DNA from: Acaryochloris sp. IP29b_bin.137
Lineage (GTDB): Bacteria; Cyanobacteriota; Cyanobacteriia; Thermosynechococcales; Thermosynechococcaceae
Length of the DNA stretch: 55,416 nt
Assembly (NCBI RefSeq): GCF_028285745.1
Contig: NZ_JANQOP010000040.1
Location: forward strand, 1-55,416
Direction of reading: 5' to 3'
Position 1 is the stretch's first letter. Each line of letters starts with the position of its first letter. Position numbers and translations under genes: made by a program. Shown here piece by piece: positions 5,779 through 21,999 of this stretch. Under the pieces are notes generated by a model, which made no database searches, was not told the DNA's origin, and worked only from the letters and a program-made list of their open reading frames with translations.

Positions 5779-6294
5779 ATGCCTTCAGGCCGCACCCATG
5801 ACCAAATTACGCTAGGGATGCTTCCCGGCATCGCTGTTGTTGCGCTGATTCTGAGTCGGAGTGCCAGCCAGACCCTCAGTCTATGTGGTGCCTTTCTGTT
5901 CAGCGGGCTGATGTTTGGGCCTGATCTCGATATTTACTCTGTCCAGTACAAGCGGTGGGGCTGGTTAAGAGTGATTTGGTTGCCCTATCAGAAACTATTG
6001 CACCATCGTTCTTGGCTCTCTCATGGTCCCATTATTGGTACAGCCATCCGGCTAACATATCTTGGAGCCTGGCTGGGAATTGGAATGGTGCTGACAAGAG
6101 TACTGTTGGCTCAGGGTTGGAATATTTCTGTAGATAGCCACAGCCTTGTGCAACAGGCAGAGCAACAAAGCAGACGTTATCTGCCAGAAGGACTAGCGAT
6201 CTTACTGGGGCTAGAACTAGGAGCTATGAGTCATTCCTTTAGCGATACTCTCGGATCATTGTGCAAGTCAGCCTTTAAGTGGCTTAAGCCTTAA
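5779..6294 (+). CDS. DUF2227 putative metal-binding membrane protein
   Basis: A 171-residue protein beginning MPSGRTHD, the signature start of the cyanobacterial DUF2227 family. Conserved His and Asp residues lie in RTHD, GPDLDIYS, HHRSWLSHGP and MSHSFSDT and could bind a metal, as proposed for the family. Hydrophobic segments at about residues 13-50, 87-112 and 145-160 suggest an integral membrane protein. The His/Asp arrangement resembles membrane-bound hydrolases of the LexA-binding/YdjM type, but no activity is established. ATG 5779 fits the family start exactly. It is a single gene; the next gene begins 78 bases downstream. Confidence 0.85.
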   Translation: MPSGRTHDQITLGMLPGIAVVALILSRSASQTLSLCGAFLFSGLMFGPDLDIYSVQYKRWGWLRVIWLPYQKLLHHRSWLSHGPIIGTAIRLTYLGAWLGIGMVLTRVLLAQGWNISVDSHSLVQQAEQQSRRYLPEGLAILLGLELGAMSHSFSDTLGSLCKSAFKWLKP

Positions 6295-6372
6295 ACCTCC
6301 TAGCTTCTCTGCCAGCAATCTTGACCACTTCTCTTGAATTGCTAGCTATATGACTGGTAAATAGCGCATCAT

Positions 6373-7620
6373 ATGGTTAGCCCTCACAATTGTGATGCCA
6401 TGCCTAGTTCCGAATCCCCCGCCAGATTGCAAATTGTCACGGCAGCCAGTGTCCTAACTGAGGGCGTTCAACTCCATGTTCCAGTCCTGATTACTCAGAT
6501 TGCATCCGCCTCAATGATGCGAACGTTGCATGCAGCTTTGCAAGCCGCATTTTCCTTGGATTATCCCGTCAGTATTGTGGGAGAACTGGCTGCTGATGAT
6601 CCACAGCTCTCGCAAACCACCCTAGAACAAATCGGTGATAAGAAGGGGATTTCCTACCCTGCCGTTATCTATCTACCAGCGCAGGTATCGGCAGTGACGA
6701 TCGCAGTTCAGCAACTCGTAGAAGTGGTTGCTAAGCTGAGATCGCCTGATGGGGGCTGTCCTTGGGATCTGGAACAAACCCCTCAAAGCCTTACCCCTTA
6801 TATTATTGAAGAGGCTTACGAAACCATTGATGCCATCCAGTCCGGCAGAGCTGAAGCGATGACGGAGGAGTTGGGGGATTTACTTTTACAAGTGGTGCTC
6901 CAGGCTCAAATTGCCAGTGAGCAAGACCTGTTCAGTTTAGAAGAGATTGCTCAAGGCATTACCAAAAAGCTGATTCGTCGCCATCCCCATGTCTTTGCCG
7001 ATGTGGAAGCCAATAGTGTTGAAGAAGTGCGCGCCAATTGGGAAGACATCAAAGCGGCCGAGAAAGGCGAAGCGACCGGTAAAACGCAAGCCTTGAGTGC
7101 CAAGATGCAGCGATATACTCGCAGCTTACCGCCTCTGATGGCTGGACTAAAACTATCGGAGAAAGCCGCTGCCGCCGGGTTAGAATGGCAAGATTTGAAT
7201 GATGTGTGGACGAAGTTCTATGAGGAGTTGGCCGAGTTTCAGGAATCTCTATTGCAAAGCGATACGGAACATCAACTTTCTGAATTAGGCGATCTCTTTT
7301 TTACGCTGGTGAATGTCGCTCGGTGGTGTCAACTCGATCCGACCGCTGCGTTGCGCAGTACGAATAAGAAATTGATTGACCGGATCTCCACCATTGAAGC
7401 CCAGACCACCAAGCCTTTGGCAGAACATACCTTTGAAGAACTTGAAGCGCTCTGGCAAGCGGCCAAACAGCAGCTTGAGCTTGAGGCTGCCGTTCCAGCT
7501 CCGACCCCGGTGAAGGACGAGGCCGAAGTTCTGAGGGAAGGCTTACCCACAGCTTTTGTTGCACCTGAGGGGCGTCTATCGACCAGTGATCCAACCAATT
7601 CTGAATTACCTTCTCCCTAA
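6373..7620 (+). CDS. mazG: Nucleoside triphosphate pyrophosphohydrolase MazG
   Basis: MazG hydrolyses NTPs and dNTPs to monophosphates and pyrophosphate, clearing non-canonical nucleotides. Two MazG repeats are visible. The first, from about residue 115, has the CPWD motif near 128-131, then EEAYE near 147 and EELGDLLLQ near 166, the Mg-binding Glu/Asp set. The second repeat, around residues 250-340, has the matching ELGDLFFTLVN helix. Residues 1-115 resemble the tail of the tetrapyrrole-methylase-like domain often fused to MazG in cyanobacteria, here shortened. The C-terminal ~45 residues are Pro/Glu-rich and unmatched. The next gene starts 40 bases downstream, so mazG probably heads a three-gene unit ending in cobQ. 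Confidence 0.9.
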   Translation: MVSPHNCDAMPSSESPARLQIVTAASVLTEGVQLHVPVLITQIASASMMRTLHAALQAAFSLDYPVSIVGELAADDPQLSQTTLEQIGDKKGISYPAVIYLPAQVSAVTIAVQQLVEVVAKLRSPDGGCPWDLEQTPQSLTPYIIEEAYETIDAIQSGRAEAMTEELGDLLLQVVLQAQIASEQDLFSLEEIAQGITKKLIRRHPHVFADVEANSVEEVRANWEDIKAAEKGEATGKTQALSAKMQRYTRSLPPLMAGLKLSEKAAAAGLEWQDLNDVWTKFYEELAEFQESLLQSDTEHQLSELGDLFFTLVNVARWCQLDPTAALRSTNKKLIDRISTIEAQTTKPLAEHTFEELEALWQAAKQQLELEAAVPAPTPVKDEAEVLREGLPTAFVAPEGRLSTSDPTNSELPSP

Positions 7621-9638: not shown

Positions 9639-9678
9639 GCTAATAGCTATCATTCTGGGCTAATAGCTATCATTCTGG
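9639..9678 (+). repeat. Perfect tandem duplication of a 20-bp unit
   Basis: GCTAATAGCTATCATTCTGG at 9639-9658 is repeated exactly at 9659-9678. Confidence 0.95.
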
Positions 9679-10120
9679 AGGTTCATCTCAGCCAGAATCA
9701 AGACCCATTACCCATTTTAATTAGAAATTCTCAGATTTTATCTGTGAATACATTTTTTTGGAATTAGCATACTAAGCCATACATTTTGAGACAGTAATCG
9801 AACGACACCACAGTTCTGGAAACGTTTTTCGACCCTACCCCAGACAATCTAGAACCAAGCCCGCAAAAACTTTGACCAACTCAAATGGATTGGCATCAGC
9901 CAGATAAACTATGCATTCCGTTGAGTACTTCTACTGTTCAACCCCGCCTAATTTTTCATTACCACCGTATTTCCACGGAGATTTTTGTCCCCTCATTGGC
10001 AGTCGCCATTTCATTCGCGAATGGGTAGCCACCCCAAACCAAGGTTTACGTGGTTCCACGATATCGCCGCTTTTGTGGAACTGCGAAAGTAAACACATGG
10101 CTATCTTAAGTGATTGAACT

Positions 10121-10162
10121 TCACTTGCACTCAGAGATAGTCTCACTTGCACTCAGGGATAG
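10121..10162 (+). repeat. Near-perfect tandem duplication of a 22-bp unit
   Basis: TCACTTGCACTCAGAGATAG (10121-10140), followed by TC, is repeated at 10143-10162 with one A-to-G change. The motif GGATAG then recurs twice more in the next 35 bases. Confidence 0.9.
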
Positions 10163-10246
10163 TTATTCTTCACTGGGGATAGCTATCCTTCCCTCTTTCT
10201 CTTAAATCTGTCGTATCCCTTCACCCATTTATTGCAGTTGGCTCCT

Positions 10247-10639
10247 ATGATCACCAGACGCTCGACCCTGCTTGAGGAAACAATGAAGAAGCCTCAGAGA
10301 CCGACCTTCGCCAGTATTCGCAACCGCTATGTTGAACTCGCGCAAGCAGCTCACCAAGATTTAGGATTTCACTGCCTTGGAGCGACCTACGACGAATACT
10401 ATTCCATTGTCTCCCTCTATCCTGATATGGGACCCACGCTCGATCAGGGGGTGTTGGCAGAAGCCTTACTCCAAGAAGAACCACCGGAACGTGCTTGTGC
10501 TTTAATTGCGCAAAGCCCTTATGTCCAATCTCAACTGCATGCCCACCAGCAGGATTTTCAGGTTATGTCAGCCTATGGAATGCCTTTAATTAATACCTAC
10601 ACTCAGGTGTATCGTAGCCATCATGGTTATGCGGCTTAA
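10247..10639 (+). CDS. Conserved hypothetical protein
   Basis: About 130 residues. Possible starts are ATG 10247 (MITRRSTLLEE) and ATG 10283 (MKKPQRPTFASI); the frame also extends to TTG 10232. The protein is soluble and mainly helical, with a conserved-looking core YVELAQAAHQDLGFHCLG and a following acidic segment ending LLQEEPPERACALIAQSPYVQ. There is no signal peptide, membrane segment or catalytic motif. Codon use looks like that of the neighbours, so it is probably real. I do not recognise the family. It stands alone, with about 80 bases before the next gene and the repeat-bearing intergenic region upstream. Confidence 0.65.
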   Translation: MITRRSTLLEETMKKPQRPTFASIRNRYVELAQAAHQDLGFHCLGATYDEYYSIVSLYPDMGPTLDQGVLAEALLQEEPPERACALIAQSPYVQSQLHAHQQDFQVMSAYGMPLINTYTQVYRSHHGYAA

Positions 10640-10718
10640 CCAGAACGGTGCAAATTGTCTGCAGATATGTCTAAGAGTCGCGTTACCATTACTGTAGTAT
10701 CCTGCACGAGCCGAGTAG

Positions 10719-10940
10719 ATGTTTTTGGACGAATTATCCCCACTGTTTCAAGAATTAGTCAGTAAACCCGTTGCCTTTATGGGAGGGTTTGCCTCGGGAC
10801 TACTGCGACTAAATTTGGCGGAAGAGCCCGTCAAGAGTTGGCTCAATCAAAAACGAGATCCGGGTGACCCTCCCCCTCCCTCCTCCAACGATGACCATCA
10901 CTCAAACGGCAGTGGTCCACAATCCATCACCATTGAGTAA
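10719..10940 (+). CDS. Small conserved cyanobacterial protein
   Basis: A 73-residue protein starting MFLDELSPLFQELVSKPV. A short hydrophobic glycine-rich segment (VAFMGGFASGLLRLNL, residues 18-33) is followed by VKSWLNQ and a Pro/Ser/Asn/His-rich flexible tail. Proteins with this start and glycine-rich helix are, as I recall, widespread in cyanobacteria as short unknowns. The stop TAA at 10938-10940 abuts the TTG start of the cobalamin-binding gene with no spacer, so it is the first gene of a three-gene unit. The helix could associate with a membrane, but that is only an inference. Confidence 0.75.
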   Translation: MFLDELSPLFQELVSKPVAFMGGFASGLLRLNLAEEPVKSWLNQKRDPGDPPPPSSNDDHHSNGSGPQSITIE

Positions 10941-11870
10941 TTGATCTTGCCAGCGTCTGATCTGCGGATTGTTTCTTTGATTCCCAGTGCAACCGAAATA
11001 GTCGCTGCGCTGGGCTTGGCAGATCATCTAGTGGGTCGATCTCATGAATGCGATTATCCCCCTCAGATCAAGAATCTGCCGATCTGTACAGCTGCTAATC
11101 TCAATGCAGATCAGCCCAGTCACCTGATCCATAAACAAGTCACCGCTTTACTCCAGTCTGCGCTCAGTATTTATCGGTTAGAGCTGGTTCAGCTGGAACG
11201 ACTCAAGCCCACCCATATTTTGACCCAGGCTCAATGTGAAGTGTGTGCCGTCAGTTTGGTTGAGGTTGAAGAGGCACTCAGCCAGATCACGGATCAGAAC
11301 ACTCAGATCATCTCGTTGCAACCCCAGATGTTGGACCATGTTTGGCACGATATCGAACGGGTTGCAATTGTACTCGGCTGCGACAGCCAACCCATCCTCA
11401 ACTCACTCCAGGCTCGCATCACCGACTGTCAGCAACGACTCAAGGATCTTCAGCATCCCCCCACCGTTGTTTGCCTAGAATGGACTGATCCGCTGATGGT
11501 AGCGGGGAATTGGGTGCCAGAACTGGTAACCCTTGCAGGTGGGCACCCCTGTTTAGGCACGGTGGGGCAACATTCGAGTTGGTTAACCTGGGAACAATTG
11601 ATTGCAGCCAATCCCGACATAATTGTTTGTATGCCCTGTGGATTTGATTTAGCGCAAACGACTCAAGCGACGGTGGATCTCGCTCAACAATCTCAATGGC
11701 AACAGCTTCAAGCCGTTCAGAACCAGCAAGTTTATGTGGTGGATGGCAATCAATACTTCAACCGTCCTGGCCCTCGTTTGGTGGACTCGACGGAACTTTT
11801 AGCTGAAATCTTTCATCCCCATCTCTTTCCGCCCCGCTATGCTGGGCATGGATGGCTAAAGTTTCACTAA
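10941..11870 (+). CDS. Cobalamin-binding protein, BtuF-like, without signal peptide
   Basis: A 309-residue protein of the periplasmic-binding-protein fold used for vitamin B12 and metal chelates (COG0614). It starts at TTG 10941, because no ATG is available before the conserved LRIVSLIPSATEIVAALGL strand. Family landmarks include SHECDYP, the TQAQCEVCAVS block, VVCLEWTDPLMVAGNWVPELV with GGHPCLG, and the C-terminal VYVVDGNQYFNRPGPR. There is no signal peptide or lipobox, unlike classical BtuF, so this cytoplasmic subgroup may sense or carry corrinoids instead of feeding an ABC importer; no transporter genes are adjacent. It is sandwiched with 0- and 4-base spacers between a small protein and a Ser/Thr kinase. 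Confidence 0.85.
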   Translation: MILPASDLRIVSLIPSATEIVAALGLADHLVGRSHECDYPPQIKNLPICTAANLNADQPSHLIHKQVTALLQSALSIYRLELVQLERLKPTHILTQAQCEVCAVSLVEVEEALSQITDQNTQIISLQPQMLDHVWHDIERVAIVLGCDSQPILNSLQARITDCQQRLKDLQHPPTVVCLEWTDPLMVAGNWVPELVTLAGGHPCLGTVGQHSSWLTWEQLIAANPDIIVCMPCGFDLAQTTQATVDLAQQSQWQQLQAVQNQQVYVVDGNQYFNRPGPRLVDSTELLAEIFHPHLFPPRYAGHGWLKFH

Positions 11871-14597: not shown

Positions 14598-15788
14598 ATG
14601 CGGTATCGTCGATTTGGCCGAACAGAGCTGCAAATGCCTGTCTTTTCTTGTGGTGGGATGCGGTATCAACATTCTTGGAAGGATGTACCAGGCTGGCAAA
14701 TCCCCCAGGCCAATCAAGACAACCTTGATGCCACCATTCGTCGGTCTGTAGAGTTAGGGATTAATCATATTGAAACTGCCAGAGGCTACGGTACTTCAGA
14801 GCTTCAGCTGGGTCGGATTCTGCCGACCATCCCCCGCCATCAACTGATCATTCAAACCAAAGTATCGCCAAAGGAGAATGCCAAAGAATTTCAAAAGACC
14901 TTTGAACAATCGCTACGCAATCTCAAGTTGGACTACGTTGACTTACTGGGGATTCATGGCATTAATACCCCCGATCTTTTGGAGTTCACCATCCGCCCAG
15001 GTGGGTGTTTAGAGGTAGCGCGTCAATGGCAAGAGCAAGGGAAGGTAAGGTTTGTGGGTTTCTCTACCCACGGTCCAACAGATTTAATCGTGGACACGAT
15101 TCAGACCGATCAGTTCGATTATGTTAATTTGCATTGGTATTACATCAATCAGTTCAATTGGCCTGCGATTGAAGCGGCCATGCAACGTGATGTCGGGGTG
15201 TTTATCATCAGTCCTTCGGACAAAGGGGGCCTGTTGTATAAGCCTTCACCTAAATTGGTGGAGCTGTGTCAGCCCCTTAGCCCCATGGTGTTTAATGACT
15301 TGTTCTGTTTGAGTCATGCCCAAGTGCATACCTTAAGTTTGGGCGCAGCACGACCGAGTGATTTTGATGAACATCTGAAGTCGTTGGAGCTATTGGACCA
15401 GGCGGATACTTTGTTACCCCCTATTTTGGAACGGTTGAGACAAGCTGCGATCGCAACCCTAGGAAAAGACTGGGTAAACACTTGGCATCAGGGTTTACCG
15501 ACCCACGAATCAACCCCCGGCAATATCAATATTCCTGTTATTCTCTGGTTGCGAAACTTAACCCTAGCCTACGACATGCGAGAATATGCCAAAATGCGTT
15601 ACAACCTTTTGGGGCAAGCCAGTCATTGGTTTCCGGGTCAAACCGCAGCTCATGTGACCAGTTTGGATTTGCAAGAATGCCTAAAGCACAGTCCTCATGC
15701 TGGGAAAATTCCTGACCTACTATTAGAGACGCATTTGCAACTGGCTGGTGAGTCCATTCAGCGTTTGTCGCAAAGTGAGTCAACTTGA
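14598..15788 (+). CDS. Aldo/keto reductase
   Basis: A 396-residue (alpha/beta)8-barrel oxidoreductase that would use NADPH. The start at ATG 14598 is supported by GGAGGG eight bases upstream. The barrel runs over about residues 1-300: RRFGRTELQMPVFSCGGMR, the catalytic segment INHIETARGYGTSE (Glu where many relatives have Asp, Tyr present), Lys in IIQTKVSP and His in GIHGINTP. Cofactor-loop features LSLGAARPSDF appear near 250. The last ~100 residues are helical. Many members of this subgroup end in a ferredoxin-like Cys cluster, and none is visible here. Substrate cannot be predicted. Confidence 0.88.
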   Translation: MRYRRFGRTELQMPVFSCGGMRYQHSWKDVPGWQIPQANQDNLDATIRRSVELGINHIETARGYGTSELQLGRILPTIPRHQLIIQTKVSPKENAKEFQKTFEQSLRNLKLDYVDLLGIHGINTPDLLEFTIRPGGCLEVARQWQEQGKVRFVGFSTHGPTDLIVDTIQTDQFDYVNLHWYYINQFNWPAIEAAMQRDVGVFIISPSDKGGLLYKPSPKLVELCQPLSPMVFNDLFCLSHAQVHTLSLGAARPSDFDEHLKSLELLDQADTLLPPILERLRQAAIATLGKDWVNTWHQGLPTHESTPGNINIPVILWLRNLTLAYDMREYAKMRYNLLGQASHWFPGQTAAHVTSLDLQECLKHSPHAGKIPDLLLETHLQLAGESIQRLSQSEST

Positions 15789-16563
15789 GTTCTAGATAGG
15801 CGCAACCCCCGATTCCTGAATGGGCTGCAACCTGAATCCTTGTATGTATAAATCAAAAAATGGCCTAACCTGAACTGATGTTCGTCCCACTTAACGGGAG
15901 TCGGCATCAATGGGTTTGGGGTACCGATAGCACTCAGCTATTGACATTGGCTCGAACTATGAACCCACATTGCCAGAGACATCCGATAAAAATAGGTGCG
16001 ATCAGAACCGAAATAGTGTTCAAGTCTCTTAACACCAACCAGGAAGATTAGCTTCTCATAGTCTCATATAATATTCAAAAAGAATAAATCTCTTAATTTT
16101 TTCTCTAGGTGAGTGAATAATTTGTGAAAAATAGATGGAGGGGAAAAATTCCAGATTAAAGTTGCTGTGTGGGTTGAATTATTTATCGTTCAGAGCAAAT
16201 TAACTTTCTAGACCTCTAATCTATACGATTGACCAGTAAGTTATTTTGTTCCTCGGTATAGTTTCAAACTCAATACAATAGACAAGATATAGTTTTGTAA
16301 AGTCAGTTGTCTAGGCCCATCAAACCAAGCTGTCATGGTTTGGAGCGTTGGGTGATGAGCAAGAAATATATTAAAAAGCACCGACAGGGGGATACCCAAA
16401 ATGGGTAGTTGGTGCTAAAGGCGTTGGATGAATTCTTGTGCCAGCGTTGTTTATTGCTCTAACAACTAATCTGTTTCTAGCTATATTTGTTTGGACTTAT
16501 GTCTTGGGCAAGCTTCTATCACCAAAGTCCATTGCTACTAAACACTTTCAGCGGTAACTACTC
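15789..16563. other. 775-bp intergenic region with a stem-loop-rich leader before the secreted cassette
   Basis: No gene of reasonable quality. The first half (15789-16250) is AT-rich and featureless to me. The second half has three successive inverted repeats: AGACAA/TTGTCT (16280-16285 with 16307-16312), CAAACCA/TGGTTTG (16321-16327 with 16336-16342), and a nested hairpin GCACC...TACCC-AAAA-GGGTA...GGTGC (16378-16415). They lie 150-280 bases upstream of the first secreted-protein gene and could be a structured 5' leader or a small RNA. Confidence 0.4.
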
Positions 16564-16956
16564 ATGAAATTCCAAAAAATTGCACCTCTCGCAGTGCTAC
16601 TGTCCCTCGGTGCTGCTCTACCTGCATCGGCAGGTTCATCTTATGTTAAGAATAGCTATGATTTAAGGAGCATCTACGACGGTAAGTCTACGACCAATAT
16701 TCATGTGCACGAGACTTACAAGGCTGACACTTGGGCTCATTCTAGTGCAACCAAAAAAGAATGGGGGTACACAAGTGTAACTGAGCATAAAGATGGCCGC
16801 GATTTCAACGAATTTGAATCCTTCGACATCAAAACCACAAGCTATGCTCAGGAAGATGGCAGACTCGAGAGGGACGTGAGAGTTCATACTCATGAGTCCT
16901 ATAAGTTTAGCGGATTTGAGAAGGATCACACCGTTTCTAGTGGTTTTGAATTCTAA
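16564..16956 (+). CDS. Secreted protein A1 of a duplicated two-gene cassette
   Basis: A 130-residue protein with a clear signal peptide (MKFQKIAPLAVLLSLGAALPASAG, cleavage after ASA near residue 23). The mature part is polar, Tyr/Phe/Ser/Thr/His-rich and free of Cys. It ends in a patterned segment: ERDVRVHTHESYKFSGFE, then the last seven residues SSGFEF. The same ending, with alternating aromatic and polar residues, closes the second A gene at 17919-18332 (REVKVEFREEYNYSEF ... STGYSF). Alternation of this kind suggests a beta-rich secreted or surface protein. I do not recognise a named family. It is the first gene of the A1-B1-A2-B2 run; B1 follows after 65 bases. Confidence 0.75.
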   Translation: MKFQKIAPLAVLLSLGAALPASAGSSYVKNSYDLRSIYDGKSTTNIHVHETYKADTWAHSSATKKEWGYTSVTEHKDGRDFNEFESFDIKTTSYAQEDGRLERDVRVHTHESYKFSGFEKDHTVSSGFEF

Positions 16957-16977
16957 CTGAATTAATCAGCAAACTGA

Positions 16978-16998
16978 GGGGCAACACTATGTTGCCCC
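16978..16998 (+). other. Intercistronic hairpin between A1 and B1
   Basis: GGGGCAAC (16978-16985), a 5-base loop, and GTTGCCCC (16991-16998) form a perfect 8-bp stem 21 bases after the A1 stop. No T-run follows, so it is not a simple terminator. It lies just ahead of the B1 ribosome binding site and could stabilise the upstream message or modulate B1 translation. Confidence 0.5.
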
Positions 16999-17021
16999 TG
17001 TCAATTCAGGAGAATATAATC

Positions 17022-17789
17022 ATGTCTTCTCGCCTGCTCACTTGTGCATCAGTGTTTGGGATATTAATGATCTCAGCTAACTGTGCTTTAGCCCAAACGA
17101 CCACTAATAATATTGATGCCCCCAATAATGCCACCTCTACAGCTAATCCTGCAGTGGATTTGAACCAACAAGGTTCATTGGTCAATACACAAGTTAATAC
17201 TCACCCTTTGGGGCGTAGTATTGTTGGTCGAGGCGTCGCAGACTGTACCAGCAATGGTATTGCCTTTTCTGCTTTTGGCAATGGCATTGGTCCCTTTGAT
17301 ACCGGTACTCTGGGTGGTTCGTTTACCTATACTCACTCTTTTGGGATGGGAACGTGTAACGAATATGCTCAAACGCAGCTTTCAAAAGCTAAGTTAGAGA
17401 ACTGTTTGCTACTGATTAGTAACTATTCCAAGATGGTCAAAGCCGGTGTCAAAGTCAGTTATCAAGCACTCAAGACCATTGGTGGTGTTGACTGTCCTCC
17501 AATCGCAGTTCAGAGTGCAGTAGCTCCGACAAATGGCCCACTTGGGCGTAATGCTGTTCCAGCACCGCAAAATCATCGGCCCCAACCTATTCTGTCTCAC
17601 CCCGAACAGCCGGAACAGCCACAACCTCTCCCTCAGCATATCCCGCCGAATCACCACCAGGTTCGGCAGCAGCAAAATCCCCATTATCAACATCAGCACA
17701 GTCCTCAACACCAAGTTCCTGTAGCGACTCCAGTGCAACATGAACCCACACATCAGCAGCAGCCACAGAACTTTAATGCTTATCGGTAA
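17022..17789 (+). CDS. Secreted protein B1 with Pro/Gln/His-rich tail
   Basis: The start is placed at ATG 17022, with CAGGAGA eight bases upstream; an ATG at 16989 lies in the intercistronic hairpin. The 255-residue product has a signal peptide (MSSRLLTCASVFGILMISANCALAQ). A conserved core of about 125 residues follows, with PLGRSIVGRGVADC, FGNGIGPFDTG, GGSFTYT, CLLLISNYSKM and a closing GGVDCP; four Cys could make two disulfides. The last ~80 residues are Pro/Gln/His-rich low complexity. The core is clearly homologous to B2 (18353-18913), which lacks the tail. The family is unknown to me. The His-rich tail could bind metal, which is inference. Confidence 0.8.
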   Translation: MSSRLLTCASVFGILMISANCALAQTTTNNIDAPNNATSTANPAVDLNQQGSLVNTQVNTHPLGRSIVGRGVADCTSNGIAFSAFGNGIGPFDTGTLGGSFTYTHSFGMGTCNEYAQTQLSKAKLENCLLLISNYSKMVKAGVKVSYQALKTIGGVDCPPIAVQSAVAPTNGPLGRNAVPAPQNHRPQPILSHPEQPEQPQPLPQHIPPNHHQVRQQQNPHYQHQHSPQHQVPVATPVQHEPTHQQQPQNFNAYR

Positions 17790-17918
17790 GCTGAAGAATT
17801 GCCAAAGATGTGACCGAAGAGTCGTGCAAACTGAAAATCTTTTGCTGTGAATAAGCGCTAGTGAATTTCTATGCCCATCGTCTAGGGCCATCACTGTACA
17901 GCTTAGGTAGGTTTTGTT

Positions 17919-18332
17919 GTGCAAGTGAATAATTGTGAAATCGTGAAATATTTCTGTATACCCTTTTTGTTAATCGTTACCGGAGTTGTGACTAAGCCTG
18001 CTATGGCTCAGGGTGTTTTCGCAACGACCGTAACGACCTTCCAAATGTCTCCAATGGGACATACCGTCATTGAGCGCAGAATTAATGACTCTGTTCAAAC
18101 CAGTGAAAGTTCAGTGTCTTTGACGACTGACAGCCAAAGTGGCTCCTCCCAAACATCTAATTCGGAAGAGGGGAAAACGACACGAACGAACTATAACTAT
18201 GGAACCACTGCAACAAGCGTTGCTATCGAGAATATTGATATCACGCGGGAAGTGAAAGTTGAGTTCCGTGAAGAATATAACTACAGCGAGTTTTCAATCG
18301 ATAATAGCTCTTCTACGGGTTATAGTTTTTAA
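17919..18332 (+). CDS. Secreted protein A2 of the duplicated cassette
   Basis: A 137-residue protein read from GTG 17919 (no ATG precedes the hydrophobic segment). The signal peptide is about KYFCIPFLLIVTGVVTKPAMAQ with cleavage after AMA. The mature part is Ser/Thr-rich in the middle and ends REVKVEFREEYNYSEF and then SSTGYSF, matching the C-terminal pattern of A1 (16564-16956): a charged beta strand, Glu-x-Tyr, Phe, Asp, Ser-x-Gly-aromatic-x-Phe. Outside the last ~30 residues similarity to A1 is weak, so the pair has diverged strongly or only the C-terminal module is shared. B2 follows within 20-80 bases. Confidence 0.65.
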   Translation: MQVNNCEIVKYFCIPFLLIVTGVVTKPAMAQGVFATTVTTFQMSPMGHTVIERRINDSVQTSESSVSLTTDSQSGSSQTSNSEEGKTTRTNYNYGTTATSVAIENIDITREVKVEFREEYNYSEFSIDNSSSTGYSF

Positions 18333-18352
18333 CCTTATTTCTGTTCAGACCA

Positions 18353-18913
18353 GTGCAAGCTCAAGCATCACTCTCAAGACAAACGGCCTCTGGCTCAAGG
18401 GTAGGGGTTGTGATGCTTCTTGTTGCGGTAAAAGTTGTATTCATTCCTACTCTGAGTGTGGCTCAGACAACTAATACGATTGATGCCAGTAATTCAGCAG
18501 AATCGAATGTGAGTCCTGATCTGGAATTGCAGCAAAGTGGGATATTAACGAATTCCCAAAGAGGGCCTCGCCCATTAGGTAAATCAATTGTGGGTAAAGG
18601 CCTCAGCGATTGTACGACAAGTGGCTTAGCACTATCAGTGTTTGGCAATGGTGTGGGGCCATTTGATACAGGCTCTATCGGTGGCTCGTTCACCTATACC
18701 CAATCAGCAGGGATGGAGGCTTGCAAGCGCCATGCACGTTCCCAGCTAACTCGCATCAAACTGGAAACGTGTTTATTACTAATCAGTAATTACTCCAAGA
18801 TGAAAAAGGCAGGCATTAAAGTGAGCTATGAAGCTTTAAAGAAGGCTTCAGGCGTTGAATGTCCTAACCTAACGTTGGAACAAATTGTGCCGGGTGCTGC
18901 CATCAATAATTGA
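18353..18913 (+). CDS. Secreted protein B2, paralogue of B1
   Basis: Read from GTG 18353 it has 186 residues; ATG 18413 is an alternative giving a shorter, uncharged signal peptide. The longer form places Arg residues before the hydrophobic stretch VVMLLVAVKVVFIPTLSVAQ, which is more typical. The mature core matches B1 block by block: PLGKSIVGKGLSDC, FGNGVGPFDTGS, GGSFTYTQS, CLLLISNYSKM, KAGIKVSYEALK and GVECP, with the four Cys conserved. It stops 16 residues after the last Cys and has no Pro/Gln/His tail. It ends 15 bases from the convergent cyclophilin gene. Function unknown. Confidence 0.75.
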   Translation: MQAQASLSRQTASGSRVGVVMLLVAVKVVFIPTLSVAQTTNTIDASNSAESNVSPDLELQQSGILTNSQRGPRPLGKSIVGKGLSDCTTSGLALSVFGNGVGPFDTGSIGGSFTYTQSAGMEACKRHARSQLTRIKLETCLLLISNYSKMKKAGIKVSYEALKKASGVECPNLTLEQIVPGAAINN

Positions 18914-18928
18914 AGAATCTTGCAATCT

Positions 18929-19351
18929 CTACTCGTCGGAGATTTTGACGGAGAGAATCTTATCTCCTTGGCCAATGGCATTAACCACGTCCATATCTTG
19001 GGTTTGGCCAAAGGTAGTATGCACCCCATCCAAATGGGGTTGGGGGGCATGGCAGATAAAAAATTGACTGCCACCTGTATCCCGACCCGCATGGGCCATG
19101 GAGAGGGTACCGGCAAGATGTTTATTTTCGTTAATTTCGCACTTGATGGTGTAACCGGGCCCGCCCGTACCGGTTCCTTTAGGACATCCCCCTTGAATCA
19201 TAAAATTAGGAATGACGCGGTGGAAGTTTAAGCCGTCATAAAATCCTTTATTAGCAAGGTCGACAAAATTCTTGACGGTGTTAGGCGCGTCTTGATCGAA
19301 TAAATCAAGATGAATCGTGCCTTTGTCTGTTTCCATGGTGGCTTTGGTCAT
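18929..19351 (-). CDS. Peptidyl-prolyl cis-trans isomerase, cyclophilin type
   Basis: A compact 140-residue cyclophilin catalysing proline isomerisation during protein folding. I choose ATG 19351 because it gives [18 protein letters not shown], the normal start of bacterial cyclophilins; the frame is open to 19474, but that extension has no family features and overlaps the upstream gene. Active-site residues are visible: [13 protein letters not shown] (Arg, Phe, Met, Gln), then [17 protein letters not shown] and the [11 protein letters not shown] block with Leu/His. There is no signal peptide, so it is cytoplasmic. It converges with B2 and is divergent from the TIGR02117 gene. Confidence 0.93.
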
Positions 19352-19450
19352 GATGGTCTTAACGCGTTGATAGTGTTGGCAACTCTGGCATCCTATCTTG
19401 GGACCTATGGGAATGCAAACTCGCCGCAAAAATGAGCGCAGCGTAAGCTT

Positions 19451-20188
19451 ATGCAAACAGGTCAATTCTGGCAAAACATCATTCGTAAAGGTTGGGCAGT
19501 GCTGAAAAAGCGCCGCCGTTGCATTACCATTTTACTTATCCTCAACGGCGGATTGTGGGGCGTTCCTGCCCTATATATGGCCCTATTTACTCCGCCTAAG
19601 CCAGCGATTCATCTCCCCAGTATTCAGCAACTCCAAAAGCCACTCTATGATTTATACGTTGTTAATTGGGGTTTTCATACTGCAATCATCCTGGAGCAAC
19701 CGACTGGCTGGCGCTTGGGACCGCACAATCACCCCCAGGCACGCTATGTGGAGTATGGGTGGGGAGATAAGCAGTTCTTTATGTATTCAGATACGTCAAT
19801 TTCGACAACTTTGGCAGCGGGAGTGCTACCCACGGCCTCTGTCATGTATGTACGAGGTAGAGACCAGGTACCTACGGCTAAAGACCAAGTGCGCCAACTC
19901 TATTATCGACAGGTGACGTCGCAACAGCTCTACGATCTGATTGAGGCGCTTGAGCAAAGTTTTTTGCGTCACAATGGTAAACGGGTAGAGCCCTATCCCA
20001 GCGTTCCTGCTTTTGTGGGTCAATTCTATCCAGGGCGGGAGTACTATGTGATCTGGTCCGATTGCAATGCCTGGACGGTCAGACATCTCCAAGCGATTGA
20101 GGTTGCCTCCCCTGTGATACCCGTTATTTTGTCTGAACAAGTGGGGCCAAGTTTAAAGGGATTTCAACTTATTTTAGGAGCGGAATAG
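19451..20188 (+). CDS. TIGR02117/DUF2459 family protein
   Basis: A 245-residue protein with an N-terminal membrane anchor (about residues 24-46, [21 protein letters not shown] after a KKRRR stretch). A domain follows with [26 protein letters not shown] and a distal [10 protein letters not shown] segment. These His, Trp/Gly and Cys positions are the conserved ones of the TIGR02117 (DUF2459) family. A Cys/His arrangement of this kind suggests a papain-like hydrolase, but no activity is known to me. The catalytic part probably faces the periplasm. It is transcribed divergently from the cyclophilin. Confidence 0.85.
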
Positions 20189-21412: not shown

Positions 21413-21859
21413 TTAATCATCATCATCATCGTCGTTTTTATTGCCGTTATAGATCCAGCGCTCCAGCTTATCGCGGAAACCTTCCTGTCGCTTTCTTCTA
21501 CGCCAAATCTCATATTCGCGATCGCGACGATTCCAGTAATCATCATCATGTCGATGTTTTTCCCAGCGACGACGTTTTCGCCAATAGCGATCTCGATCTC
21601 TTCTCCATTTTTGTCGATCCCGCTTTCTTTGCCGATGCCAGCGATCATAATCACGGTTATGACGGCAGCGGACGCGGCCATAACGACGCCAACAATATTT
21701 GCGACGCCAAGAGCGATTCTTGTGCGCAATTAACGAAGAGGCGTTCTCTTCTTGTATTTGCTGGGGACTTTCTTGGCTTAGAATAACCGCTTGGGCCGGC
21801 GAGATAATTGCCACTGCACCCATCATTACGGCTGCCAACATCACAGAGGATTTAGCCAT
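21413..21859 (-). CDS. Secreted Arg/Trp/Tyr-rich protein with poly-Asp tail
   Basis: Starting at ATG 21859 (GAGAAAAAAGCA upstream), the 148-residue product has a signal peptide (MAKSSVMLAAVMMGAVAIISPAQA) and a short neutral linker. About 85 residues follow that are dominated by Arg, Lys, Asp, Trp and Tyr in a loose repeat (RDYDRWHRQRKRDRQKW, RDRDRYWRKRRRW). The protein closes with KLERWIYNGNKN and six Asp. The charge is strongly positive with an acidic cap. Binding of an acidic polymer such as exopolysaccharide or nucleic acid outside the membrane is a reasonable guess, not shown. A clear terminator follows, and a 20-bp palindrome lies between it and the divergent ATPase gene. An upstream in-frame start at 21892 is possible but less likely. 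Confidence 0.75.
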   Translation of the reverse strand: MAKSSVMLAAVMMGAVAIISPAQAVILSQESPQQIQEENASSLIAHKNRSWRRKYCWRRYGRVRCRHNRDYDRWHRQRKRDRQKWRRDRDRYWRKRRRWEKHRHDDDYWNRRDREYEIWRRRKRQEGFRDKLERWIYNGNKNDDDDDD

Positions 21860-21999
21860 TGCTTTTTTCTCAGCTTTATCGGTGACTCTCAAGTGCTAGA
21901 TTAGGTTCAAAGCTGAAGGATGTCAGTCTAAAAACCTCCGAAAAAAAAGCCAAAAAATATAGAAAATTAATCGTGTGAAAGTGGAAAAATGTAGAACTA

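Follow-up and report, generated by a model that had tools for sequence, protein, structure and literature searches.

We describe here a four-gene array, A1-B1-A2-B2, in a 55,416-nucleotide stretch of the genome of the cyanobacterium Acaryochloris sp. IP29b_bin.137 (the window; contig NZ_JANQOP010000040.1, our C241, from a 5.5 Mb genome in 373 contigs). It represents a cellular variant of a cluster type known before only from phages, where it was unexplained. Our explanation, to which we give a probability of about 0.5, is that it is a cellular member of an exported two-component cassette common to cyanobacteria and their phages, in which the A proteins would be subunits and B their envelope partner or anchor, and with which phages would alter the surface of the infected cell. 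As far as sequence can tell, the explanation is backed by (i) homology of the B proteins, (ii) the pairing of A and B, (iii) export signals encoded in the DNA, (iv) a cysteine spacing quantised in heptads and (v) purifying selection.

Pairing of the A and B genes

A preliminary description of the window had read the array as four signal-peptide genes in the order A-B-A-B, whose products may act together. The order is borne out by the list of open reading frames (ORFs), which gives four on the same strand; export-type leaders are called on A1, A2 and B2 by a crude signal-peptide rule of our own, used for all cyanobacterial genes, and the leader of B1 was judged by eye. A same-strand neighbour with a signal-peptide call stands in the gene run of B at 23 of 24 cyanobacterial B loci, and the 24th (L040) has an A gene according to a profile hidden Markov model (HMM); the set excludes a locus with a broken A after B (L046), one at a contig edge (L047), the second unit of L038, L159 (genome G172) and L160 (genome G090). 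Every one of the 19 matches of the A HMM falls at the locus of a B or B-like gene, in one case across a contig break, and the intact B genes inspected have either an A-type neighbour or a contig break beside them. A signal peptide was called for 71 of 96 run neighbours of B, compared with 58 of the 281 remaining ORFs of those stretches, and the combination of a signal peptide, no cysteine and an aromatic end was found in 31 of the 96 and 10 of the 281, respectively.

The arrangement recurs in phages, where B was preceded on the same strand by a small Ser/Thr/Asn-rich protein with a signal-peptide call at 16 of 16 loci. B genes do not, then, commonly occur apart from an A-like neighbour. Within the limits of gene-order evidence, these results strongly support joint action of A and B, and their pairing and predicted export are well supported.

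Relatives of B in other cyanobacteria and in phages

B proteins of the window's type occur in 11 of 388 sampled genomes of the class, all in the window's family (f1) and two with remnants only, and strong B-like matches (E < 1e-50) were found in 12 of the 388 genomes outside it, in the cyanobacterial families f2, f13, f32 and f37. Profiles of f1 B and of the other cyanobacterial B proteins, the last of which holds rows from 11 of the 12 strongly matching genomes, aligned in two comparisons, with probabilities of 96.5 (E 7.2e-10; reversed control 0.24) and 96.8 (E 2.3e-10). As in the window, the clusters of these four families combine a B-like gene with adjacent exported Ser/Thr/Asn-rich proteins, and the distance between the second and third conserved cysteines (C2-C3) is 23, 30 or 37 residues. 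A genome of another family (G201) gave a weak A match (E 8.1e-6) with a B-like gene alongside. Two weak B-like matches were set aside, one in a housekeeping region of G090 (E 0.008) as chance and one in G172 as a 53-residue fragment.

A marine-type B-like protein matched Synechococcus phage S-CAM7, whose gp027 matches both phrog_1755 and phrog_848; the former was matched by 11 of 11 and the latter by 8 of 11 non-f1 cyanobacterial B proteins. A search with S-H38 gp027 matched 464 of 50,697 phage records, many of them isolates of the same phages, the first word of their names being Synechococcus (316), Cyanophage (80), Prochlorococcus (55), Marine (9), uncultured (3) or Tiamatvirus (1). In phage P-SSM2, B is T4-GC 235 and lies alongside T4-GC 236 and 237 (PSSM2_240-242). 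Comparison of the f1 B and phage B profiles with hhalign gave a probability of 94.9 and an E value of 4.2e-8 (reversed control 0.11); other cyanobacterial B proteins matched phage B at E 1.1e-19, and the A-prime protein of f13 matched the phage T4-GC 237 type at E 8.3e-18, the reversed controls of the B comparisons and of this last one being 0.031 or higher. The B protein of Vibrio phage vB_pir03 matched other cyanobacterial B proteins (E 3.1e-7) and not f1 B (probability 2.6). A search of IMG/VR with f1 B returned no match.

These profile comparisons identify B as a distant relative of phrog_1755/phrog_848 and of T4-GC 235. The earlier statement that the array belongs to no known family thus holds as to function and fails as to the kinship of B. 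The Pfam scan within the window covered the four cassette proteins only, and none of them had a match above the Pfam or NCBIfam cut-off; no family was matched in either database by the B proteins of L112 and L113, nor in Pfam by that of L086. A PHROGs scan, which has no curated cut-off, gave as its best result A2 against a head-protein family (E 0.008) and nothing for B.

The 16 phage loci come from 11 Kyanoviridae, 3 Autographiviridae (P-SSP7, S-TIP37 and P-RSP2) and 2 phages with no family (S-SKS1 and Vibrio phage vB_pir03). Their 24 upstream neighbours include 23 with a signal-peptide call and 23 without mature cysteines; the rule used for phages was looser, accepting a lower hydrophobicity and not testing for a second membrane segment, although the 23 called scored at least 2.15 against a stricter limit of 1.9. 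The neighbours in S-CAM7 and vB_pir03 are A-like by composition only. By eye, 7 of 14 phage B genes have a leader-like stretch in frame upstream of the annotated start, and most of the others have one inside an N-terminal extension overlapping A. Phage B genes (L166-L181) are often annotated with no leader or as overlapping the upstream A, and many recorded starts look doubtful.

Like the array, the phage cluster of T4-GC 235, 236 and 237 has one or two exported proteins preceding B on the same strand. Unlike f1 B, phage B has a longer helix, with a C2-C3 distance of 23 or 30, and extra sequence separates C1 from C2 in 8 of 11 rows from large-genome cyanophages; phage clusters further differ from those of f1 in that T4-GC 218, 219 and 234 also lie nearby. 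According to the available passages of Sullivan et al. 2010 (PMC3037559), T4-GCs 218, 219, 234, 235 and 237 cluster together in 15 of the 16 cyanophages compared, their products being hypothetical proteins for which a functional link was suggested, and T4-like cyanophages are ubiquitous in the ocean.

Cysteine pattern and predicted stalk of B

All the B motifs quoted in the preliminary description are present in both B copies, and the four cysteines noted there are invariant in 17 of 17 B proteins of f1. The C2-C3 distance is 16 residues in the 17 f1 rows and 16, 23, 30 or 37 in 43 of 44 B proteins (unfiltered list), values that fit 16+7n. The sole exception is the copy in genome G009, which has neither C1 nor C2; the B of S-TIP37 as annotated is without C1. 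That all four spacings are congruent modulo 7 would have a naive chance of about 0.003, a figure to be read with kinship in mind, which leaves few independent changes. Spacing in whole heptads suggests a disulphide-stapled helical stalk, and we infer that B may contain such a stalk, varying by whole heptads, with bonds C1-C2 and C3-C4; the AlphaFold model of B1 has a helix at 120-151, in a block with a predicted local distance difference test score (pLDDT) of 60-84. The tail of B1 is rich in His, Gln and Pro; it is missing in B2 and variable in other B proteins.

Two A subfamilies and the history of the array

The preliminary description had A1 and A2 share only a C-terminal module. This confinement is rejected by three results. 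An HMM built from A1-type proteins only detects A2 (E 9.6e-7) and one from A2-type proteins only detects A1 (E 1.1e-10); the profiles of the mature parts align over 112 columns (probability 96.9, E 1.3e-10; reversed control 0.2); and in a shuffle test most A1/A2 cross-scores exceeded every shuffle, the exceptions being four mature parts (G016_A2 against the A1 profile, and G014, G016_A1a and G010 against the A2 profile). The similarity is thus above chance level. In the A tree, A2 forms one side of a branch supported at 95/95, or at 93/93 when one very long A2 row (G013) is excluded; since this side includes other genera, the split between A1 and A2 is old. On this evidence, A1 and A2 are homologous along their mature length and represent two subfamilies predating the genus. 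Sequence searches of the PDB gave no convincing match.

The order A1-B1-A2-B2 is found at four loci, all in the window's genus (the window, L037, L043 and L044), and a second cluster in the window's genome, on contig C311 (L035), reads A-A-B-A2. Clusters elsewhere mostly have one B: A1-B-A2 occurs as a tandem pair in L038 and singly in L009, A-A-A-B-A2 in L039, A-B-A in L045, A-B in L040 and L011, and a broken A with B in L046; in G014, A lies at one contig end and B at the start of another contig. The simple tandem duplication of an A-B pair that had been proposed is weakened, because the A1/A2 split is common to other genera and in most other clusters a single B stands between A1 and A2; not supported as stated, it is one possible history. 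The B2 proteins form a supported clade (100/100) that was seen in no genus other than the window's, whereas a single clade of B1 plus B2 is neither shown nor rejected (approximately unbiased test, p 0.36), and B2 may be a copy of B1 made within the genus or may be older. A separate B tree, of 42 rows, was limited to those with the C2-C3 spacings named above.

Some clusters hold further genes. In L035 (3132-3440), and in the same run in L009 and L045, an ORF of about 100-115 amino acids that ends in an aromatic residue and was called for a signal peptide is a possible third component of the cassette. The f2 clusters (L113, 6441-17001; L114, L136 and L137) encode two extra small exported proteins with cysteines, and several also encode proteins of 350-410 amino acids rich in Ser, Thr and Asn; L113 also has an open frame that extends beyond the stretch and is at least 1481 residues long. 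These f2 clusters possibly form a larger surface apparatus.

Searches of plasmids with f1 B and with two B-like proteins as queries gave no match. In G009, the plasmid-like contig C240 (L161) carries at 5862-7024 a B-like gene, the one lacking C1 and C2, and an A-like neighbour assigned by place and composition that the A profile did not detect; the cassette may therefore also travel on a cellular mobile element. We take ORFs of this contig to be of single-strand-binding, primase-like and DNA adenine methylase-like types, and one more (9656-10972, minus strand), judged by eye, presumably resembles IscB-type proteins.

Selection, features and surroundings of the array

The cassette genes are under purifying selection wherever it could be computed: the ratio of nonsynonymous to synonymous divergence (dN/dS) was about 0.08-0.25 in all pairs with a computable dS, including B1, A2 and B2 of the window. 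The window pairs with G001 and G004 had dN of 0.12-0.33 and dS of about 0.9-1.9 or saturated; for A1 of the window dS was saturated in both, giving no ratio, and two other A1-type pairs gave about 0.2. Comparison of the pairs indicates faster divergence in A than in B. The features of the array are given in Table 1; from comparison with homologues, B1 and A2 more probably start at 17022 and 17943, respectively.

Table 1. Features of the array and of its upstream region (positions in the window)
Feature	Position	Strand	Remarks
A1: small exported protein, 130 amino acids, A1 subfamily, probably beta-rich	16564..16956	+	HMM, signal-peptide rule; low-confidence all-beta AlphaFold model
B1: exported four-cysteine protein, helical region, Pro/Gln/His-rich tail	17022..17789	+	ORF listed from 16989; 17022 is the preferred start
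A2: small exported protein, A2 subfamily	17919..18332	+	GTG at 17943 is the likelier start; HMM, signal-peptide rule
B2: B paralogue without the Pro/Gln-rich tail	18353..18913	+	No member of its clade seen outside the window's genus
Leader hairpin GCACC...GGUGC with invariant GACAGGGGGA loop	16378..16415	+	About 185 nucleotides upstream of A1
Conserved non-coding block upstream of A1	16090..16133	+	Alignment: clear in three species, weaker in a fourth

The array is flanked by the ORFs 14598-15788, which we take to encode a protein of aldo-keto reductase type, and 18929-19474 (minus strand), presumably a cyclophilin-type peptidyl-prolyl isomerase. Synteny is kept on both sides in G001 and on the isomerase side in G004 and G002. 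In G005 and G006, also of the window's genus, only stop-bearing B remnants adjoin the isomerase gene, so the cluster can decay. Farther away, at 21413-21892 (minus strand), the window encodes a small Arg/Trp/Tyr-rich protein that begins with a leader-like stretch and ends in a poly-Asp tail, and whose position is kept in relatives.

The 14-mer of the hairpin upstream of A1 starts 182-186 bases before the A1 start and occurs once each in 3 of 29 genomes of the family and nowhere else in them; the hairpin is present at three of the four A1-B1-A2-B2 loci, all in genomes of the same genus. Of 200 shuffled versions each, only 2 matched or exceeded the fold of a 70-base piece, whereas 15 did so for a 101-base piece. 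Two copies share one fold, with an altered inner stem, and the third folds differently, so that covariation, from three sequences, is only suggestive. No match was found in Rfam, and that the hairpin regulates the operon would be a guess.

Proposed role and alternative explanations

In the cassette that we propose, each cluster would provide one to several A proteins, Sec-exported, mostly free of cysteine, rich in Ser, Thr, Asn and Gly and probably beta-structured, which, as A diverges fast, would be variable structural subunits. B would consist of a signal peptide, an Asn/Gln-rich segment that may join the A structure and the helical stalk with its two disulphides, and the Pro/Gln-rich tail of many B copies could reach or bind the cell wall. 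In contact with A, B would nucleate, cap or anchor it at the outer envelope, outside the outer membrane. Host cells would use the cassette for a surface structure, and lytic cyanophages would benefit from A and B by altering the infected cell's surface so that other phages are blocked or sticking results. A narrower version is offered tentatively and is rather doubtful: an as yet unnamed envelope system, common to cyanobacteria and lytic phages, of variable beta-type A proteins on a disulphide-stapled B stalk varying by heptads, with which phages would re-coat the host during infection for superinfection exclusion or cell-cell capture.

Several results weigh against the proposed cassette. Window B1 found no phage record by tblastn, and neither B1 nor B2 a PHROG, at E values up to 1, so the link to phages rests on profile-profile comparison through intermediates. 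Between f1 A and phage A or A-prime (T4-GC 236/237) nothing exceeded a probability of 30; the two are alike in position, export signal and composition, with no homology detected. In f2, f13 and f37, too, the A role is assigned from place and composition without detected homology to f1 A, and the B-like fragment of G172 has no A-like neighbour. The AlphaFold models, from 12-row alignments, are weak overall for B1 (pLDDT 49) and, for A1, all-beta at low confidence (pLDDT 46). Foldseek returned for the B model a meaningless best E of 1.2 and for the A model a best E of 6.3e-4 with a template modelling (TM) score of only 0.16, the rest being long-hairpin look-alikes with TM of about 0.1-0.3. Finally, CsgG (PF03783) was found in all nine intact-B f1 genomes tested, always on other contigs or far away, as well as in two of five f1 genomes without B; outside f1, only one of four genomes with a B-like gene had it, and 42 cassette loci (16 from phages) contained none, with the control detected, so that no outer-membrane exporter is linked to the cassette.

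That CsgG accompanies f1 B at the level of the genome bears on a curli-like (type VIII) system, in which A would be an amyloid fibre subunit, B its nucleator and CsgG the exporter. Such systems do resemble the cassette in combining small exported subunits rich in Ser, Thr, Asn, Gly and Gln with a partner protein. None of the four proteins, however, matched the curlin repeats of Pfam at E up to 10, CsgG is missing from all the cassette loci searched and from three of the four B-like genomes outside f1, and phage curli clusters, in the available parts of the publications, consist of a different gene set, namely CsgF, CsgG, CsgA/B and FecR (PMC7029224, PMC9599517); we consider this explanation improbable. 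No more credit is due to the idea that A and B belong to the phage particle, with the copies in cells being relics or domesticated genes of phage origin. It would fit the occurrence of T4-GC 235 and 237 in 15 of the 16 T4-like cyanophages compared in 2010 (PMC3037559, as available in part), the 464 records matching a phage B, and the proximity of tail genes in S-CAM7 and in two T7-like phages, but both proteins have leader-like starts, and the available passages of Sullivan et al., Table S8 aside, give T4-GC 235/237 as clustered hypotheticals and not as virion proteins (PMC3037559).

Somewhat less remote, though still unlikely, is a phage exit module, with A and B helping to break the envelope from the periplasm or the outer membrane and the cyanobacterial copies being domesticated. 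Two T7-like phages, P-SSP7 and S-TIP37, carry the pair between their genes for tail fibre and terminase, a position that lysis genes could occupy; the P-SSP7 gene directly upstream has two predicted transmembrane regions, and the leader-like starts on A and B would suit this role. Yet intact multi-copy clusters persist in cyanobacteria under purifying selection, the myophage cluster is often near psbA, hsp20 or talC, and nothing on these genes appeared in cyanophage lysis papers among the best 10 of 81 matches. As A1 has no cysteine it is not a spanin-type lipoprotein, and the conserved cysteines of B, by eye, lie far from the leader, unlike in two-component spanins. We regard as equally unlikely an ordinary periplasmic pair for housekeeping or for binding metal or protein, with no surface role: the His/Gln/Pro-rich tail of B1 and two disulphides would suit the periplasm, whereas that tail is not a constant feature of B, the distribution is patchy (f1-type B in 11 of 388 genomes of the class, decayed in two genomes of the window's genus) and A diverges rapidly and changes copy number.

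Significance

Our literature search, which most subscription papers lay outside, found no report linking the T4-GC cluster to cyanobacterial operons. With the array, this phage cluster gains cellular relatives in intact, conserved and sometimes multi-copy operons, and these counterparts make the function of the viral cluster testable. In phage and host alike, both partners have export-type leaders, and the B cysteines follow a 16+7n rule that is directly testable. If the cassette is a surface system, it would represent an auxiliary function widespread in cyanophages and so far unannotated.

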